A stretch of 44,446 bases of DNA from a virus. The translations under genes were made by a program, and so were the position numbers. Below the pieces are notes generated by a model that saw only the letters and a program-made list of their open reading frames with translations, was not told the origin of the DNA and searched no databases. The stretch is taken from positions 1 through 44,446 of IMG/VR virus record IMGVR_UViG_3300020172_004437. One strand, given 5' to 3'. Positions within the stretch are counted from its first letter, which is position 1, and each line of letters starts with the position of its first letter. This document shows positions 2,600-27,846 of this stretch, piece by piece.

Positions 2600-2682
2600 C
2601 ATATTATTAGGTTTTAGACTTATAATGTGATATTGACAATGTGGGGGATATTCACTATGATTACAACATAAAAAAAGATATT

Positions 2683-3210
2683 ATGAAAAGAATGACAATT
2701 GACAACTCCCATTCAGAGATTGGGTTTAAAGTAAAACACTTAATGATTAGTACCGTTAAAGGTAACTTCGCCACATACGGTGGTGGAATCCAAGAAGACG
2801 GAACAGTATCTGTATCTGTAAACGCAGGTTCAGTTAACACGGGTAATGTAGATAGAGACAACCACCTAAAAGGTGCGGACTTCTTTAACACAGAAGAATT
2901 CCCAACAATCGAATTCAATGGTAAGATGACTGAAGATATGACTACGGTTACAGGTAACATCACAATCAAAGGTGTGACCAAAGAAATCGAACTAAACACT
3001 GAGTATAATGGAACAAGCAGAGACCCGTGGGGAAATACAAAACACGGATGGGAAATCACAGGTACAATCAATAGAAATGATTTCGGACTTGTATGGAACG
3101 CACCATTAGAAACAGGTGGTGTATTAGTAAGTGAGAACGTAACTTTATCTATGGATATTCAGATGATGGAAGAAGTTGTAGAAGAGATGGTTACAGAATC
3201 AGCAAACTAA
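2683..3210 (+). CDS. yceI: YceI family protein
   Basis: 175 aa. The start ATG at 2683 gives MKRMTIDNSHSEIGFKVKHL, the classical opening of YceI proteins, whereas an upstream GTG would add 14 unmatched residues. Other family landmarks are TVKGNFATYGGGI, DRDNHLKGADFF, FPTIEFNGK and the terminal strand VSENVTLSMDIQ. YceI proteins form a lipocalin-like barrel that binds isoprenoid or amphiphilic molecules. No signal peptide is present, so this copy should be cytoplasmic or virion-borne. A clear terminator follows. It is unusual as phage cargo and stands directly beside the candidate origin. Confidence 0.9.
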   Translation: MKRMTIDNSHSEIGFKVKHLMISTVKGNFATYGGGIQEDGTVSVSVNAGSVNTGNVDRDNHLKGADFFNTEEFPTIEFNGKMTEDMTTVTGNITIKGVTKEIELNTEYNGTSRDPWGNTKHGWEITGTINRNDFGLVWNAPLETGGVLVSENVTLSMDIQMMEEVVEEMVTESAN

Positions 3211-3234
3211 TAAAACACTATAGATAACCTAAAG

Positions 3235-3268
3235 ACCCTTACTGTAATAGTAGGGGTTTTTTATTTAT
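3235..3268 (+). terminator. Terminator of the YceI gene
   Basis: A 9-bp stem ACCCTTACT/AGTAGGGGT around GTAAT is followed by TTTTTTATTT. Confidence 0.85.
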
Positions 3269-3357
3269 AGGATAATGAAACATTCTAATCCATTCATTCC
3301 ATCCTACCGTTCGTAAACTCACTACGGATTTCATTCAGGATTAGATTCTTTCATTAT

Positions 3358-3416
3358 GTATATTTCACGTAGTATCGTATAATTTAAGTATATTTCCGTA
3401 TCATTACGTATATTTC
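3358..3416 (+). repeat. Three GTATATTTC iteron-like repeats
   Basis: Copies start at 3358, 3388 and 3408, each preceded by AT, AA or AC and followed by ACG, CG or ACC. Spacings are 30 and 20 nt. Confidence 0.55.
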
Positions 3417-3426
3417 ACCATAATCC

Positions 3427-3449
3427 TTATGTATAGAGATTATACATAA
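3427..3449. repeat. Perfect hairpin TTATGTATA/TATACATAA
   Basis: A 9-bp perfect inverted repeat with a 5-nt loop GAGAT. A second pair TGTATAGA/TCTATACA follows within 40 nt. Confidence 0.7.
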
Positions 3450-3582
3450 CAACTTACTCGTGTATAGAAAATCAAATAATCTATACATAATCATTTTATC
3501 GTAATCCACATTACTGTAATGTATATTACCGTACAGGAATATTCATAGTACAATACACTGTTTACTGTCAGTTTATTACCAT

Positions 3583-3608
3583 ACGGTAAAATCCCCCCTT
3601 TTTACCGT
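3583..3608. repeat. Perfect hairpin with C-run loop
   Basis: ACGGTAAAA and TTTTACCGT pair over 9 bp, leaving the loop TCCCCCCT. Confidence 0.7.
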
Positions 3609-3735
3609 GTCCCCCATATATGAGATGACTATGTGAGGGACAGATATAATACTCTGATTATATAATACTTCTAAACAATACCTTCGGTAATATACGAGGT
3701 ATTATAAACTATAGAGTATAGTGTATGGTGACTAA

Positions 3736-3803
3736 GGGATTATATGAGATAACATATAAAAGATACCTACGGTATAAAACTATATGTTATTAGATATAAT
3801 CCC
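3736..3803. repeat. 68-nt three-tier perfect hairpin
   Basis: Nested stems GGGATTATAT/ATATAATCCC (10 bp), ATAACATATA/TATATGTTAT (10 bp) and ATACC/GGTAT (5 bp) are separated by small asymmetric internal loops (GAG/TAG, AAAG/AAAAC). An outer GTGACTA (3728) can pair with TAGTCAC (3836). All 25 bp are perfect, which implies selection for structure. Confidence 0.8.
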
Positions 3804-4197
3804 CACTTTATACCACTAAGTTATCTGTCTATTAATAGTCACTACGAAGGGGACTAATTTATCGGTCAAACTATGGTCATATATCGGTCAGATAACACCC
3901 TCTAACGAGGGGTCGTTGAAGGATAATCCTAACACACTACGTGTTACCCACGCCTCTGTACCATAACTTCTATTATTCTCTGGAGTTCACATATACCTAA
4001 AAAAACCTTTCTAACAGTACTCTCAGAGGGGAAAAAGTGGTCTTTACTATAGCGTCAGGTACGATAGTGGTGGTAGAAAGTGGGGGAGAGTGTATAGAGA
4101 GTGGGGATTAAAACCCTGTAAAGCGATTATCCCCATCGTAAAGGGTGACTGACATTTTGACAATTCCAAATTTTTTAACACTTATTTTTAAAAAAAG

Positions 4198-4259
4198 TTA
4201 TCAACAATTCCCCCCTGACAGTGTGTCAGGACCAATGTGGATAAAAAAAGTTATTCACA
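4198..4259. promoter_or_regulatory. Cluster of DnaA-box-like sites
   Basis: TTATCAACA at 4198-4206, TGTGGATAA at 4236-4244 (exact TTATCCACA on the minus strand) and TTATTCACA at 4251-4259, with the CTGACA-GTG-TGTCAG stem (4215-4229) between. Binding by host DnaA is inferred from the consensus only. Confidence 0.6.
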
Positions 4260-4314
4260 TTTAATATGTTCATAACTATATTTTATTGTACCCTCTTTCA
4301 AGGTATATATTATT

Positions 4315-4629
4315 ATGGACAATATGACAGACAAAATCTTAGATGGATTGACTTTCAAGGTGAGTTCAATAGAGAATAACTATAGTGTAAGATACTATGG
4401 TAAGAGTGGGGGAAGAGCACTCGGAATAATAAGGTTCACAGTAAACCATAAGGTCGATGGTAGAATCCCTCAGGTAATCCCTATTATAACTTCAATGGAC
4501 CTAAATGAATTAATCGGTTATATAATGGGGATGAATAATCTCTCAGCTAATATGGGGGATTACATTGTCTATCTAATCAGGTCCCACTCCACCAAGATTG
4601 TTAAGGAAGAAGTTCCCTCCTTCTATTAA
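4315..4629 (+). CDS. Hypothetical protein beside the candidate origin
   Basis: 104 aa, moderately basic, with no tag, signal peptide or membrane segment. Strands YSVRYYGKSGG, LGIIRFTVNH and PQVIPIITS alternate with a helix LNELIGYIMGM, suggesting a small alpha/beta fold. It begins 55 nt after the last DnaA-like box, so a replication or origin-binding role is possible but rests on position only. A perfect hairpin CCTTATA/TATAAGG follows within 40 nt. Confidence 0.6.
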   Translation: MDNMTDKILDGLTFKVSSIENNYSVRYYGKSGGRALGIIRFTVNHKVDGRIPQVIPIITSMDLNELIGYIMGMNNLSANMGDYIVYLIRSHSTKIVKEEVPSFY

Positions 4630-4761
4630 AGATGGGGAACCCTTATAAAAAAATATAAGGCAGGTTGGAGTCTACCCTCTGCAACCCCACTGTTGGTTGA
4701 ACCCGTCTCGAACTTAATCACCGACACTACAAAGGTAGTGATAATATTTGACACTACCAAA

Positions 4762-5190
4762 TTATCTACGGTTAATAATCTTCGGGGTCTCAAGATAAAT
4801 TGTAGCACCATTACTATTGTAACCTCTACCAAATCCAAAGATGTTTAGGAAACCCCCAAGTTCATTACCAATCCAATCCTTATACTTTGTCATAGTATAC
4901 TTACGTACTCTCTCATCTTTATATGGGGTACGATTGGACCAAGTGTTGTCCCCACGATAGGAATGTTCCACCTTAGTAATCTCTATGTTGAGACGGTATT
5001 CATTGATATTATATTTGTATACCGCAGGAAGAACACTGACAATACGGAAGGTGATTCTCTCACACTCATTCCCCACTGTGTACTCACGGTTCTTAATCAT
5101 CTTGGTTACCTTCTTAGAATACCCCATCTGTTTGACTCTACAGGAATCACGTTGTTCGTTAGTAAGATTATATACAGGACCAAAATACAT
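4762..5190 (-). CDS. Hypothetical protein, converging on the 4315 gene
   Basis: 142 aa from MYFGPVYNLTNEQRD. A longer reading frame from 5247 exists, but it would overlap the -33/-7 promoter elements at 5217-5248, so the downstream ATG at 5190 is preferred. It is basic and Tyr/Arg-rich. The C-terminal GYNSNGATIYLETPKI resembles the YxSxGTxYMNxY ending of the 10777 and 14402 genes. No recognised domain. Confidence 0.6.
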   Translation of the reverse strand: MYFGPVYNLTNEQRDSCRVKQMGYSKKVTKMIKNREYTVGNECERITFRIVSVLPAVYKYNINEYRLNIEITKVEHSYRGDNTWSNRTPYKDERVRKYTMTKYKDWIGNELGGFLNIFGFGRGYNSNGATIYLETPKIINRR

Positions 5191-5216
5191 AAGGGAATAA
5201 TTTAAATTAAAGTCTA

Positions 5217-5248
5217 CGAAGATACAAATACTATTTGGATTAAACAAA
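5217..5248 (-). promoter_or_regulatory. Host-type promoter for the 4762-5190 gene
   Basis: Minus strand TTTG-N20-TATCTTCG (last element one mismatch from TAnnTTTG), 26 nt before the ATG at 5190. Confidence 0.6.
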
Positions 5249-5529
5249 TAAAGTTATACACAGTCAGGATGTCAGGGGGAAGTTATTAACAATACTATGT
5301 TGATAACTTTATTTGGTATTGTCATCTTGTCAGGGGTGGTGGGGGTGGCATACCCCCCTATACTCCCCCCGTATGGGGGCCCCCTCCGTATCCCCCCCGT
5401 GTATGACACTCTGTCAGGTCCCAAAAGGGGGGGTAATCCCTTAAAAAAAGTCTATACAATTTTTTTGGAAAAATGGACCCCCTTCTATAAATTAAGTCGG
5501 GATTCTAAAAAAAAATTTTTGGAAAAAAA

Positions 5530-5560
5530 TTGATAAATTCGGAATATTGTCTTATCCTTA
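5530..5560 (+). promoter_or_regulatory. Probable host-type promoter for the lipoprotein gene
   Basis: TTG-N20-TATCCTTA. The preceding AAAAAAATTG-ATAAATTCGGA resembles the blocks before the promoters at 7572 and 24928. Confidence 0.45.
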
Positions 5561-5601
5561 TACTATGGAATTAGGGGGTGGAACTTTATACTCAAAATTT
5601 C

Positions 5602-5608
5602 TATTTAT
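5602..5608 (+). promoter_or_regulatory. TATTTAT box before the lipoprotein gene
   Basis: TATTTAT with 17 nt to the ATG at 5626. Confidence 0.45.
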
Positions 5609-5625
5609 TTAAAAAACAATATAAT

Positions 5626-6324
5626 ATGAAAAAACTTATTTTAAGTATCGTTGGTGCCACTATGTTATTTAGTTGTAACACTAACACAAAAACGGAAACG
5701 GTAGAGGACATTAAGTCTGATAAAATGGTTAAGATACATCAGGGGTCTTTTGCCTTTTGTGGGGCATCGGGAGCGGTACCTACGGGAAGAAAGATTATGG
5801 TTCAAGGTAAGGAGTACGATGAAGGATGTGCAATATGTCCTGTATTAGAAGGTCCATCTATTTCTAACTTGGCAATGAAAGGTGTAAGTGGAACCTATGG
5901 TAAATTCAACGTGGGGGAAAACTTCCAAACACCTGATGGAACAAATAATACTGTATGGTCTTTATTTTGGTACTATGATTCAACTACAACTATTCCCCAA
6001 TTTAATCCTGAAACAAAGGGATGGGAATTGTTACCACCAACAAACAGGTCTTTTGTAATTAATATGGATTCTCCAAGTACAAGTGAGAGTAATATGTTTG
6101 CGATGCCAGGGGTGATTATCGATACAACATCAGAGGGGATTGTGTTGGCTAAAGTATATGGTCCACTTAATGAAGCTGCGGTTCCATTACGTAAGGCGGT
6201 ACCTGTTAAAAACGGACAGACTTCCGTAACTGCTGCTAAGATTGGATTCCCTTATCCTGTGGGAACACCAATTCCTGTTGCTGAGTACAGTAAAGAACTT
6301 CAGAAAAAAGAGAAACAAAAATAA
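5626..6324 (+). CDS. Secreted lipoprotein, unknown function
   Basis: 232 aa. The start at 5626 gives a lipoprotein signal peptide MKKLILSIVGATMLFSC with a lipobox Cys at residue 17; an upstream in-frame start would bury it. Mature residues include CGASGAV, DEGCAICPVLEG and a long beta-rich region with FPYPVGTPIPV, plus a Lys/Gln-rich tail. Four Cys after the lipobox could form disulfides. Probably anchored in the host envelope; superinfection exclusion or envelope modification are guesses. It ends at a strong terminator. Confidence 0.8.
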   Translation: MKKLILSIVGATMLFSCNTNTKTETVEDIKSDKMVKIHQGSFAFCGASGAVPTGRKIMVQGKEYDEGCAICPVLEGPSISNLAMKGVSGTYGKFNVGENFQTPDGTNNTVWSLFWYYDSTTTIPQFNPETKGWELLPPTNRSFVINMDSPSTSESNMFAMPGVIIDTTSEGIVLAKVYGPLNEAAVPLRKAVPVKNGQTSVTAAKIGFPYPVGTPIPVAEYSKELQKKEKQK

Positions 6325-13083: not shown

Positions 13084-13974
13084 ATGGGAAAATTTATATT
13101 AACTGAAGAAGATAGAAAATCAATTCGTGGATTATATGGTTTGAACGAGCAATCAAGTGAGATTGTTTCTATTAAAGGAGAGCAACCATATCCAAACGGT
13201 ACTGATTGGGATTTAGTACACGGTATATTAGGTTCTAAAAGATTATCTGATGATTTGGAAAAAAGGGTTAGTGAAAAATTGAAGAGTGGAAGTTATAGAG
13301 TAACTGATGTCAAAATTTCATCTTATGTTAGTGATAATAAAGTTATTACTGATGGAACAGTTACTTTAGTTTCAGACATTAATAATCCTGATATTGCATT
13401 TACTACAAGAGGCTCCATAGGGGGTAATTATGAACAACGTCACGATAACCAAATTAATGGGTTAGTTGACAGATTATCTGCCTATTATCAAGGAATTACA
13501 AGACAATTTGGGCCATTCATTGTTAATGTAAAAGGTTCTTCTTGGAGATACAAACAATCATTTTTTGCGGTTTCAAAACAAAATACAGAACCGTCAAAAC
13601 CAAATCCAGAACCGTCAAGTGGTGAAGTTATGAAGAAATTTGTGATTTCAACAACAAATTTGGACCAATTAAATCCCAAATTTAAAAACGAGGTTTCAAC
13701 TTATATTAAAAGTAATAAAGATGTAAAATATGATGTTGATTATTTTGATGTATCATCTGAAGATGGTATAACCTCAATTGCAAAATTAGATATAGTTCCA
13801 AATGAAAATGGTTACAATCGATTTTCAATATTATTAAATCTAAAAGGAAAACCACAAGAATCATTAAACAATTCCTTAAGTAAAAATCCTGGTTCTAAAC
13901 TTATAAAAGACGGGACGATTACAATAAATAATAAAGAATATGAATACCATTTAATTGGTTTAAATGTAGAATAA
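13084..13974 (+). CDS. Tagged two-domain protein
   Basis: 296 aa starting MGKFILTEEDRKSIRGLYGL and NEQ, a full extended tag with an LNE-Q site at about residues 20-23. An upstream GTG-type extension would add 13 residues and cross the TATTTATA box. The first domain (to about 170) has GTDWDLVHGILGSK and beta strands; a Pro/Asn/Glu linker (TEPSKPNPEPSSGE) leads to a second domain of about 100 aa with VMKKFVISTTNLDQLN. Not recognised. Confidence 0.75.
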   Translation: MGKFILTEEDRKSIRGLYGLNEQSSEIVSIKGEQPYPNGTDWDLVHGILGSKRLSDDLEKRVSEKLKSGSYRVTDVKISSYVSDNKVITDGTVTLVSDINNPDIAFTTRGSIGGNYEQRHDNQINGLVDRLSAYYQGITRQFGPFIVNVKGSSWRYKQSFFAVSKQNTEPSKPNPEPSSGEVMKKFVISTTNLDQLNPKFKNEVSTYIKSNKDVKYDVDYFDVSSEDGITSIAKLDIVPNENGYNRFSILLNLKGKPQESLNNSLSKNPGSKLIKDGTITINNKEYEYHLIGLNVE

Positions 13975-13989
13975 AAAAAAACAAAAATT

Positions 13990-14319
13990 ATGAAACACAT
14001 TTTAAATAATTTAACGGAAGAAGAAAAAGACTCTATTCGTAGACAACATTCAAATAAAATTGTTAGTGAACAAACCGTAAAACCTAATACAGACCCTAAC
14101 GCAAACCTTGGTCAACCACCTAAAGGTATGTTGAAAAGTTGTAACCCTACAACACTTAAAGGAATTAAAAATATGTTTTTTGGAGAAAGCGATAACTCAA
14201 TTAAAATAGAAAACAATGTTTCTTTCGGTGAAAGAAATGGTGGTAGTGATGTGTTCTTCATTACCGCTCAAGGTGCCGCTCCTTGTTGGTGTAAAAAAGC
14301 AGACTTCCAAAAACTTTAA
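13990..14319 (+). CDS. Tagged protein, NLTE variant
   Basis: 109 aa starting MKHILNNLTEEEKDSIRRQH then IVSE-Q, almost the same tag as the 8120 gene although the bodies are unrelated. The body is short with Cys near SCNPTTLKGIK and APCWCKKADF, a possible metal or disulfide cluster. Ends at a terminator. Good example of one head on two different bodies. Confidence 0.75.
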   Translation: MKHILNNLTEEEKDSIRRQHSNKIVSEQTVKPNTDPNANLGQPPKGMLKSCNPTTLKGIKNMFFGESDNSIKIENNVSFGERNGGSDVFFITAQGAAPCWCKKADFQKL

Positions 14320-14344
14320 AATTAATATAAAATTTAATATCGAA

Positions 14345-14373
14345 AACCTCATCTTAAACGATGAGGTTTTTTT
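14345..14373 (+). terminator. Terminator after 14319
   Basis: Perfect AACCTCATC/GATGAGGTT stem followed by T5. Confidence 0.85.
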
Positions 14374-14391
14374 ATTGGTAAAAAAATATTA

Positions 14392-14398
14392 TATTTAT
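14392..14398 (+). promoter_or_regulatory. TATTTAT box, leaderless geometry
   Basis: TATTTAT CCT ATG: 3 nt to the start at 14402. Confidence 0.65.
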
Positions 14399-14401
14399 CC
14401 T

Positions 14402-14773
14402 ATGGAAACTGAAAATTCAATAAACATATTCATTAATACATTCTACCCTGAAATAGAATTTAAAATTCACGCTCAATACGATAGTCATTGGATGTGTGAT
14501 TTACCTCATAGATGGAGGTACACCATTGAAATTATTAATTTTGAAGGTAATATGATATATAACCATCAGGATTTCACTCCAATATATAAGTTAACAAACG
14601 GTCAAACGGTTGATTTAGATACAATTTATGACAAAATGGATACTTTTATCCCTCATATTAGTGATAAAATTACTTTTTTCTATATGACTGATAAAGGTTA
14701 TATTAAAAATCTTGAAAGAATCAAATACCATTCTTCAGGAACCACCTATATGAATGAATATTTTGTAGGATAA
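14402..14773 (+). CDS. Hypothetical protein with SSGTTYMNEYFVG ending
   Basis: 123 aa from ATG 14402; a longer frame would run through the terminator and promoter. No tag (METENSINIFINTFYPEIEF). Strands FKIHAQYDSHW and RYTIEIINFEG, then a helix and the C-terminal motif YHSSGTTYMNEYFVG, which matches the 10777 gene. The motif at the extreme C-terminus may be a conserved interaction peptide. Function unknown. Confidence 0.7.
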   Translation: METENSINIFINTFYPEIEFKIHAQYDSHWMCDLPHRWRYTIEIINFEGNMIYNHQDFTPIYKLTNGQTVDLDTIYDKMDTFIPHISDKITFFYMTDKGYIKNLERIKYHSSGTTYMNEYFVG

Positions 14774-14797
14774 CTTTATATTTTGTCGTTTATCAAG

Positions 14798-14804
14798 TAT
14801 TTAT
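14798..14804 (+). promoter_or_regulatory. TATTTAT box for the 14824 gene
   Basis: AAGTATTTATTAATA, 19 nt before the ATG at 14824. Confidence 0.6.
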
Positions 14805-14823
14805 TAATAAAAATAATATTAAT

Positions 14824-15573
14824 ATGGGACAAGAATTAATAAATGAAGAGTTAGAAAAGATGAAATATCTTTTTGGATATCAAAAAGGTGTTGTTATTTC
14901 TGAACAACAAAGTAGAGGAACTTCGGGAACTAGTGGTTCTTCAGGAACCGCAGGTAGTAGTGGTTCATCGGCTTCTACGGCGAATCCTGACGATGCCGAT
15001 TGGACTAAAGTAGTTAATTACTATACAGGTAATACTGACGCATCTTGGGAATTTGTAAGTGCAGGTACTTATGACAGTGGAGCAGTCATTTACGATTTTA
15101 TTGAAGTAAAAACCAAGGATACCGCAACAAATGGGACGGATTGTACAATGAAACTTTATGACGATAAAGACGCTTATAAACGTAATTGTAGAAAGGCTAA
15201 AACAATAAATGGACAGTGGTCTTGGGATGGTAATAAACCAACATTAACTTGGGAGGATAGAATAACTAAATCATCTCCTGGTTATGTATCAGATACTGAT
15301 ACTGATTGGAGTGGAGTAACCAACGATAATAGAATTATGGGAGTTGGTGCTAAAGGAAGTTTAGTAAAAAAAGTTCAAAACTTTTTAGCGTCTAACGGTT
15401 ATACTGGAGAAACATTTACTAACGATATTCAAGCTTGTGCGACAGATGAGAATAGTTGTGATGGAATTTACGGAGTAAAAACTAAAAATATGGTTAAGAA
15501 ATTCCAAGAAGATGCTGATATTAAACCTGACGGTATTTTTGGAACTCAGACTTATGATGCAATGTTTGAATAA
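14824..15573 (+). CDS. Tagged peptidoglycan-binding protein
   Basis: 249 aa. N-terminus MGQELINEELEKMKYLFGYQ with VISE-QQ at about residues 26-30, then a Gly/Ser/Thr linker (TSGTSGSSGTAGSSGSS), a central beta domain with a Cys pair (NGTDCTMKLY, YKRNCRKAK), and a C-terminal PG_binding_1-type repeat about 170-249 (VGAKGSLVKKVQNFLASNGY ... CDGIYGVKTKNMVKKFQ ... IKPDGIFGTQTY). A virion protein that binds cell wall is the simplest reading. Ends at a terminator shared with the convergent small basic gene. Confidence 0.8.
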   Translation: MGQELINEELEKMKYLFGYQKGVVISEQQSRGTSGTSGSSGTAGSSGSSASTANPDDADWTKVVNYYTGNTDASWEFVSAGTYDSGAVIYDFIEVKTKDTATNGTDCTMKLYDDKDAYKRNCRKAKTINGQWSWDGNKPTLTWEDRITKSSPGYVSDTDTDWSGVTNDNRIMGVGAKGSLVKKVQNFLASNGYTGETFTNDIQACATDENSCDGIYGVKTKNMVKKFQEDADIKPDGIFGTQTYDAMFE

Positions 15574-15594
15574 ACATAATAAAAAGATAAAAAT

Positions 15595-15624
15595 AAAACC
15601 CCATTAATTGGGGTTTTATTTTTT
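15595..15624 (+). terminator. Terminator after 15573
   Basis: AAAACCCC/GGGGTTTT with loop ATTAATT, then ATTTTTT. It overlaps the stop of the 15623 gene. Confidence 0.8.
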
Positions 15625-15766
15625 AATGACCTTGTCCTCTATTTAACTTTTTATAATTTTTAGAACTTTTTAATTTAGAGGTTTTAGATTTTGAGTGAAC
15701 ACCAGGACGACTAACCTTAGGTCTATCGATTTTGGTTGAGGTTTGAGAAGTTTTTGCCTTTGCCAT
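15623..15766 (-). CDS. 47-aa small basic protein
   Basis: Starts MAKAKTSQTSTKIDRP and ends in SSKNYKKLNRGQGH, with about one third Lys/Arg/His and no hydrophobic core. Small proteins with a KSKTSK...NYKK...RGQG pattern recur in phages of Bacteroidetes as far as I recall. Likely nucleic-acid binding or disordered. Convergent with the 14824 gene; no clear TATTTAT box, only AATATTTAATAG upstream. Confidence 0.65.
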   Translation of the reverse strand: MAKAKTSQTSTKIDRPKVSRPGVHSKSKTSKLKSSKNYKKLNRGQGH

Positions 15767-24833: not shown

Positions 24834-24907
24834 GGTAGTGGTAGCTCAGAAGGTAGAGCATTCGTTCAAAAAACGGTGTGCCATTGGTTCGATTCCAATC
24901 CCTACCA
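24834..24907 (+). tRNA. tRNA with bulged acceptor stem, anticodon uncertain (AAA by position)
   Basis: D-arm GCTC-AGAAGGTA-GAGC and T-arm ATTGG-TTCGATT-CCAAT are canonical. The acceptor pairs as GGTAG(T)GG with CCCTACC, which needs one bulged T. The anticodon arm TTCGT-TCAAAAA-ACGGT has a T-T mismatch at the top and C instead of U at position 33; counting gives anticodon AAA (Phe). A homopolymer sequencing error in the A run would change this. CCA is not fully encoded (ACA follows). A functional but diverged tRNA, or a decoy, are both possible. Confidence 0.75.
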
Positions 24908-24927
24908 CAAAAAAAGATAAAAAAAAA

Positions 24928-26820: not shown

Positions 26821-27846
26821 ATGAAAAGAAAATTCGATTTTAAAGATATTACTATAGTACCTGAAACAGTATCATCAATTAGTAGTCGTAGTGAAGTTAA
26901 TATCTTAAATGAACAGGGAGAACTACCAATTATGGTATCCCCAATGGATACCGTAGTTGATTTAAATAACTATAAACAATTTATCGATTTAAACATTCCC
27001 GTTTGTTTACCTCGAGGTGAGGATTTGGTTGACGACGCATTTTATTCGGTTTCATTAGAAGAATTTGAAACTATTGTTAATCATTATTTAGAACCAGGTT
27101 TAAATATTAAACTTAAAATATTGGTTGATATTGCCAATGGTCACATTAAAAAATTACACGATTTATGTGAAAAATTTATCAGTAAGCGAGATAAAACATT
27201 ACATACATTAATGGTCGGTAATATTGCTAATCCTAAAACTTATAAACAGTTTGGTAAAATAGGTGTTGACTATGTTAGAGTTGGAATTGGTGGTGGTTCA
27301 GGATGTCTAACTTCCGCAAATACTGGGGTACATTACCCAATGGCATCATTGATTAATGAATGTTATGAGTTTAAGAAAAAATACGATTTTGAAACCAAAA
27401 TTGTTGCGGATGGGGGTTTTAGAAATTACGATGATATTATTAAAGCTTTGATGTTAGGTGCGGATTATGTGATGTTAGGGGGAATTTTAAATAAATGTTT
27501 AGAATCTTGTTCAGAAACTAAATTATTCAATAAGATTAAACTATCTCAAAACATCTCAAATTATATTTGGATTTATTATCCTAAATTAAGACAATTTTTA
27601 TATAAATCATTTAGAGGTATGAGTACTAAAGATGTTCAAAAAAAATGGAATAAAAATATATTAAAAACATCTGAAGGTATTGTCAAAACAAATAAAGTTG
27701 AGTATACTTTAAATCAGTGGACAGATAATTTTAAAGATTACTTAAAATCGGCGATGTCGTACACCAATTCAAATACTTTAGAATCTTTCAAAGACTCCGA
27801 ATACGTTTTTATAACCGAAAATGCTCTTAAAAGATTTAATAAATAA
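26821..27846 (+). CDS. IMP dehydrogenase / GMP reductase family enzyme
   Basis: 341 aa, a TIM barrel without CBS domains. Seen: FDFKDITIVPETVSS near the start, IMVSPMDTVVD, the active-site loop GIGGGSGCLTSANTGVHYP with C162, IVADGGFRNYDD, ALMLGADYVMLGG, and a degenerate flap FRGMSTKDVQKKW. IMPDH oxidises IMP to XMP; GMPR reduces GMP to IMP; both use the same Cys. The length and lack of CBS favour a GMPR-like enzyme, but the loop GGGSGCLTSA departs from the usual GPGSxCTTR, so specificity is open. Would redirect guanine nucleotide pools during infection. Confidence 0.85.
   Translation: MKRKFDFKDITIVPETVSSISSRSEVNILNEQGELPIMVSPMDTVVDLNNYKQFIDLNIPVCLPRGEDLVDDAFYSVSLEEFETIVNHYLEPGLNIKLKILVDIANGHIKKLHDLCEKFISKRDKTLHTLMVGNIANPKTYKQFGKIGVDYVRVGIGGGSGCLTSANTGVHYPMASLINECYEFKKKYDFETKIVADGGFRNYDDIIKALMLGADYVMLGGILNKCLESCSETKLFNKIKLSQNISNYIWIYYPKLRQFLYKSFRGMSTKDVQKKWNKNILKTSEGIVKTNKVEYTLNQWTDNFKDYLKSAMSYTNSNTLESFKDSEYVFITENALKRFNK

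Follow-up and report, generated by a model that had tools for sequence, protein, structure and literature searches.

GOLLD, ROOL and OLE are among the few RNAs of their size and complexity described in phages or bacteria, and their functions are unsolved; in cryo-EM such RNAs appear as homo-oligomers (cages or dimers). OLE is a large ornate RNA whose gene lies almost always in tandem with oapA, the OapA protein occurring only with the RNA (PMC9723947). GOLLD is a large phage-borne structured RNA with a conserved 3′ region and a less conserved 5′ region, and ROOL, an RNA of phages and prophages, shows complex folding and a length similar to that of the element described here (PMC12286853).

The window analysed here is the whole of a virus record, 44,446 bases long. 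Its positions 3211–4314 had been proposed in an initial annotation as a candidate DnaA-dependent replication origin, given their hairpins, repeats and DnaA-like 9-mers. P1 oriR is an example of a DnaA-dependent phage or plasmid origin; in plasmid ColE1, a structured transcript (RNA II) heads into the origin and serves as pre-primer and in copy control. The stretch examined here is non-coding, recurs in large phages, contains helices with compensatory changes, is strictly linked to one gene and has a conserved box at its junction with that gene. The reading we favour, and consider probable with some reserve, is that it encodes, in the rightward direction, a large structured RNA of ∼560–600 nt, passed on in tandem with the gene of a ∼100-aa protein, the two likely forming a ribonucleoprotein, with a box module that would control the gene.

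Relatives of the window and distribution of the element

All sequence data were metagenomic contigs, some of which may be incomplete. The nearest relative of the window was G001, a 158-kb contig that encodes portal, major head, terminase and tail-sheath proteins, to which positions 3495–5526 correspond at 79% in the alignment. A Bacteroidota host is suggested by the Por secretion sorting domain of one window protein. Elsewhere in the window, a ∼36-nt element is repeated near minus-strand gene starts (478–513, 820–855, 1109–1134 and 1421–1459), and also in G001 (97% identical); it is perhaps a shared promoter or leader. An IMP dehydrogenase/GMP reductase-like gene (26821–27846) has relatives in phages of 460–640 kb. 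The 248-aa protein encoded at 5578–6324 gave 127 matching stretches in viral contigs of up to 373 kb (80 loci kept); it matched nothing in PHROG, Pfam or isolated phages.

BLAST of 34 phage records plus a profile search provided eight further homologs of the RNA element. A pattern taken from the best-conserved part of its 3′ domain matched 36 viral and 56 cellular contigs; a 250-nt profile then confirmed 34 of the 36 viral matches (E ≤ 1e-23) and rejected all 56 cellular ones (best E = 3e-4), the element being found in none of 84,980 cellular genomes. L121 and L124, matched by the pattern and not by the profile, were left out. The comparison set comprised 31 distinct sequences. Searching first for the downstream protein added ∼12 contigs with the element, which is present in more than 40 large phage contigs of up to 308 kb, and in exactly one copy in each of seven long contigs. 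DNA and protein searches of isolated phages gave no match, and none of 50,697 isolated-phage records has the element.

Hairpins and repeats upstream of position 4315

The left part of the region contains the following features:

3234–3263, plus strand: terminator-like hairpin and T run closing the YceI gene and bounding the non-coding region on the left (from the sequence)
3272–3357, unstranded: imperfect inverted repeat with 20-nt arms, ahead of the RNA core (from the sequence)
3358–3416, plus strand: three copies of GTATATTTC (from the sequence and relatives)

The terminator-like hairpin recurs in G001 with altered letters, and elements of the form CATTC...CTACGG, like the 3272–3357 repeat, occupy the equivalent place in several relatives. 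The gene ending at this border (2641–3210) is a phage-borne YceI-like gene. Transcription had been said to diverge just to the left of the region; a minus-strand gene does begin at 2566, facing away from the plus-strand YceI gene (start 2641), which places the divergence ∼0.6 kb to the left with one plus-strand gene between. Two 14-bp palindromes (GTAATNNNNATTAC) lie in tandem at 3501–3529, and similar repeats precede the RNA in L101, L103 and L122.

Against the at least six perfect stems originally reported for 3211–4314, eight were counted (7–9 bp, loops of 3–15 nt), compared with 1.8 ± 1.3 in dinucleotide shuffles. The density is thus above that of shuffled DNA, but the word ‘extraordinary’ used for it is too strong within this genome, because 13.5–15.7 kb and 24.6 kb of the window are equally stem-dense. 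The first of these (13524–15732) reaches 11 perfect stems of at least 7 bp per 1.1 kb, mostly inside predicted genes. The upper length of 10 bp given earlier applies, as an uninterrupted stem with a loop of up to 15 nt, only to the lower tier of the long hairpin. This 68-nt, three-tier hairpin lies exactly at 3736–3803, and its predicted fold has 26 pairs (25 had been claimed). The repeats were found as described, GTATATTTC starting at 3358, 3388 and 3408, and ATCGGTCA at 3861 and 3883. A 9-mer in triplicate is not clearly rare on its own (P = 0.10, shuffles), and the GTATATTTC repeats are found in L131 and missing from most relatives.

A probable large structured RNA

No ORF of 60 aa or longer lies between the YceI terminator (3234–3263) and the gene at 4315. 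Comparison with relatives led to a partial, hand-guided model of RNA secondary structure, with these components:

∼3583–4146, plus strand: core of the large structured RNA, ∼560–600 nt, ends approximate (conserved, non-coding, covarying helices in relatives)
3609–3614, plus strand: PC2 helix, 5′ arm GTCCCC, pairing with 3849–3854 (relatives, arm-swap)
3849–3854, plus strand: PC2 helix, 3′ arm GGGGAC (relatives, arm-swap)
3626–3632, plus strand: P1a helix, 5′ arm, pairing with 3835–3841 (sequence, relatives, arm-swap)
3835–3841, plus strand: P1a helix, 3′ arm (sequence, relatives, arm-swap)
3638–3646, plus strand: P1b helix, 5′ arm GGACAGATA, pairing with 3822–3830 (relatives, arm-swap)
3822–3830, plus strand: P1b helix, 3′ arm TATCTGTCT (relatives, arm-swap)
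3649–3719, plus strand: P2/P3 stem-loop with a UUCG tetraloop at 3683–3686 (sequence, G001)
3736–3803, plus strand: P4 three-tier hairpin with a UACG tetraloop at 3768–3771 (compensatory changes in relatives)
3801–3816, plus strand: P5, 5′ arm CCAC-N6-CCAC, complementary to 4070–4085, possible pseudoknot (sequence)
4070–4085, plus strand: P5, 3′ arm GTGG-N6-GTGG (sequence)
3913–4166, plus strand: conserved 3′ domain, source of the profile (34 of 36 viral and no cellular pattern matches)
3934–3944, plus strand: H2 hairpin, ACAC-UAC-GUGU (varied arms across loci)

UUCG and UACG tetraloops thus cap helices in the window. The 3′ domain is alignable in the 31 loci, and the 5′ parts vary in length and letters. 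The helices persist through changes of sequence: PC2 arms appear among relatives as GTCCCC/GGGGAC, GACCCC/GGGGTC and TTCCCC/GGGGAA, P1b arms as AGAGACACGA/TTGTGTCTCT, AGTAGACGA/TCGTCTATT and AAGATTATA/TATAATCTT, and H2 arms as ACAC/GUGU, GUCC/GGAC, GACA/UGUC, ACCC/GGGU and CACA/UGUG. In G001 all letters of P2/P3 are replaced and the hairpin is kept; P4 is letter-identical there and recurs in most loci with replaced letters.

Covariation of P4 was assessed in 14 sequences, where 87% of the cells were paired and two-sided changes occupied 25 cells, versus 11.6 when shuffled (0/500); slid controls scored ∼0.05 versus 0.24. In an arm-swap test, in which the 5′ arm of each locus was paired with the 3′ arms of other loci, the own partner was favoured for P4 (z = −6.6), for the long-range helices PC2/P1 (z = −5.5) and for H2 (z = −5.1, distinct arms only), with 0/20,000 permutations in each case; since related sequences are not independent, these statistics are inflated and are not exact probabilities. 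The P5 long-range pairing (3801–3816 with 4070–4085) was set aside: its letters are conserved, and covariation was unsupportive (arm-swap z = −0.3).

All 31 loci folded better than shuffles (mean z = −3.3; z = −5.0 for the window). Folding energy was discarded as a strand test, since the raw preference for the plus strand (27 of 31 loci) was gone after composition correction. The RNA is read on the plus strand because of its constant orientation to the downstream gene and a slight excess of G-U over A-C in P4 (15 versus 10). A covariance model of P4 recovered its training set only and missed the window's own P4. When ten full-length sequences were aligned with plain MAFFT, RNAalifold recovered hardly any structure, owing to misalignment of the variable 5′ parts.

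The stems noted initially are therefore conserved in relatives, as covarying RNA helices with arms in some cases 180–240 nt apart, and most of the reported hairpins appear better explained as helices of a large structured RNA than as a bare origin. A plain DnaA-dependent origin with the hairpins acting as DNA, the earlier reading, is very improbable: the density of stems and boxes does exceed that of shuffles, but local DNA cruciforms would not need helices so far apart to covary, the GTATATTTC repeats are absent from most relatives, and five relatives have no skew switch (see below). On the evidence of the helices, the element would be transcribed and act as an RNA.

The companion protein gene

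The next same-strand ORF after the RNA belongs to a single divergent family of ∼100 aa, represented in the window by:

4315–4629, plus strand: companion protein gene, 104 aa (profile match, synteny)

A profile built without the window and G001 proteins found the window protein at E = 1.2e-10, far ahead of other window ORFs; the G001 counterpart was its top match there, but an insignificant one (E = 0.12). For the scan of the collection a closer subset of companion proteins was used, alignment A6 being too divergent. Among loci found through the protein and having enough upstream DNA, the RNA was present in 22 of 22. Searches of Pfam, PHROG and PDB sequences gave no convincing relative of the protein, the closest Pfam matches being insignificant. 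An AlphaFold model of the L099 companion (pLDDT 94) has four strands followed by two helices, and fold searches with it found no convincing relative (the best VIA-align Z, 4.8, is typical of unrelated folds).

The RNA always lies upstream of the same gene and on the same strand, with only ∼40 nt from the 3′ domain to the start codon in many loci. Such an arrangement could also suit a very long cis-acting leader (a riboregulator or attenuator) controlling the downstream small gene and nothing else. We regard this as distinctly unlikely, since a promoter-like motif stands between RNA and gene, 600 nt is long for a leader, and no alternative terminator or pairing that sequesters the start site was identified. 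Moreover, an HNH gene parts the RNA from the companion gene in L278 (and the near-identical L279 and L280) and in L293 (the contig of L127), yet both parts persist. These HNH endonuclease-like genes (L278:1884–2504 and L293:1438–2058) are inserted exactly between RNA and companion gene, and are perhaps homing elements aimed at the conserved junction. By analogy with the ole-oapA arrangement, the RNA most likely works as a ribonucleoprotein with the downstream protein, or is helped by it; element and protein may be a viral RNA-protein machine.

DnaA-like boxes at the 3′ end of the RNA

Between the RNA and the companion gene, and ∼1 kb further downstream, lie:

4149–4189, plus strand: CTGACATTTTGACA motif followed by an A/T tract, promoter-like (by consensus resemblance only)
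4198–4276, unstranded: cluster of DnaA-like boxes at 4198 (+), 4236 (−), 4251 (+) and 4267 (−) (sequence, relatives)
4214–4230: CCTGACAGTGTGTCAGG palindrome within the box cluster
5253–5307, unstranded: second box cluster, at 5253 (+), 5282 (+) and 5298 (−)

The promoter-like stretch probably serves the downstream small gene. In most loci the boxes come after a T[TC]TG[AT]CA motif and its following A/T tract, a candidate promoter for that gene. The three DnaA-like 9-mers reported earlier were all found, namely TTATCAACA at 4198 (+), an exact TTATCCACA at 4236 (−) and TTATTCACA at 4251 (+), and are joined by a fourth, TTATGAACA, at 4267 (−). Sites with at most one mismatch from TTATCCACA number five versus 0.5 expected (P = 0.003, shuffles), and 3211–4314 is the only 1.1-kb stretch of the window with such a box density. 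The second cluster falls in a non-coding segment (5247–5577) conserved with G001, which besides its three DnaA-like boxes has CCCTGACA motifs and C or G runs of up to 8.

Of the 31 loci, 24 have a TTATN[AC]ACA no more than 65 nt from the RNA 3′ end, versus 0.76 expected from the flanks. Most boxes are TTATNAACA, not TTATNCACA; they preserve TTAT..ACA, with most variation at position 5, which is free in the DnaA consensus, and at position 6. The class of 9-mer is thus conserved, but the exact TTATCCACA is not kept at the equivalent place in G001, the nearest relative. Exact TTATCCACA pairs in opposite orientation were found in L117 and L144. Clusters of at least two GTTATN[AC]ACA in 70 nt lie at the RNA 3′ end in the window, G001, G008, G045 and G049, the only others in these five genomes being ∼1 kb downstream of the RNA in the window, G001 and G045; no cluster was seen in G035 or G040. 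Among the boxes of a cyanobacterial origin footprinted with DnaA is TTATCAACA (PMC4674748). In the phages, the boxes may be either genuine DnaA boxes or an operator belonging to the small-gene promoter. Under the ribonucleoprotein reading, the promoter-like and box module at the RNA 3′ end would control the small gene; a box cluster confined to the RNA locus in several genomes exceeds what an RNA gene needs, which counts against that reading.

A possible origin at this locus

In the window and G001, cumulative GC skew reaches a minimum ∼1 kb beyond the element. This was not accepted as proof of an origin, since a minimum near the element occurs only in these two, where genes also switch strand; after fitting gene strand, the side-of-element term was not significant (t = 0.5 and 0.3, respectively). 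In G008, G035, G040, G045 and G049 the skew continues unchanged across the element. A search of 12 phage records found a DnaA domain in none and a DnaB-type helicase in six. The initial origin proposal is therefore supported in part, through conservation of the stems and of the 9-mer class, and is weakened by the skew and DnaA results, obtained on contigs that may be incomplete. An origin retains some probability because the box clusters, in genomes having them, sit at this locus.

The main rival of the RNA-protein reading is accordingly a replication origin with an RNA component, in which the transcript would enter the A/T tract and DnaA boxes as pre-primer or for copy control, like ColE1 RNA II, with the protein as regulator. 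The A/T tract adjoining the boxes, the proximity of a box to the RNA in most loci, the confinement of clusters to the locus in five genomes, the TTATCCACA pairs, the variation at position 5 (and 6) and the occurrence of TTATCAACA in a footprinted origin are all consistent with it. We nevertheless take it to be unlikely, if worth serious attention, as five of the seven contigs lack a skew switch at the element, two of these genomes have no box cluster, no phage DnaA was found in the 12 records, and the boxes overlap a promoter-like stretch before the gene, where an operator would also account for them. It is doubtful that the ∼600-nt RNA acts jointly with its small protein partner to drive or control a DnaA-box origin in very large phages, which would be unlike any phage origin described. 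If the boxes are true DnaA sites, they bear on how replication starts in very large phages. The tandem protein offers a concrete handle, as it may bind the RNA, the boxes or neither.

Comparison with known systems

No Rfam 15 model matched the window at gathering score. The GOLLD, ROOL and OLE models gave nothing at E ≤ 5 in 3200–5600 or at E ≤ 0.5 in 12 relatives, and self-splicing introns, tmRNA, RNase P and other Rfam RNAs were without match in the window or the loci of the 12 relatives. The only tRNA of the window (24834–24908) lies 20 kb from the element, whereas GOLLD and ROOL are often near tRNA islands; it is a phage tRNA-Phe with anticodon AAA rather than the usual GAA.

Compared with origins, the element resembles ColE1 RNA II in transcript size and in the A/T tract of an origin-like region, and differs in its much larger genomes, its box cluster and a small protein without assigned fold, priming being here a candidate role only. 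As in P1 oriR, DnaA-like boxes lie near a small gene, and in the window, G001 and G045 they form two clusters separated by ∼1 kb; unlike P1 oriR, the locus lacks a recognisable initiator and, in most relatives, a skew switch, and is preceded by a large conserved RNA. Among RNAs, it shares with GOLLD a phage location, a length of several hundred nt and a conserved 3′ and variable 5′ region, and with ROOL a similar length and complex folding, but differs from both in its tandem protein gene and in lacking an adjacent tRNA island and an Rfam match. Judged by the Rfam models, which place it outside GOLLD, ROOL and OLE, the element is best regarded as a new family among large ornate RNAs, with a tandem protein. 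OLE is carried on Bacillota chromosomes and OapA is a transmembrane protein of 21 kDa, while the element is phage-borne and its companion is a small, predicted alpha/beta protein; the arrangement is comparable in kind, with a different protein, the RNA lying upstream in all of the testable loci found through the protein.
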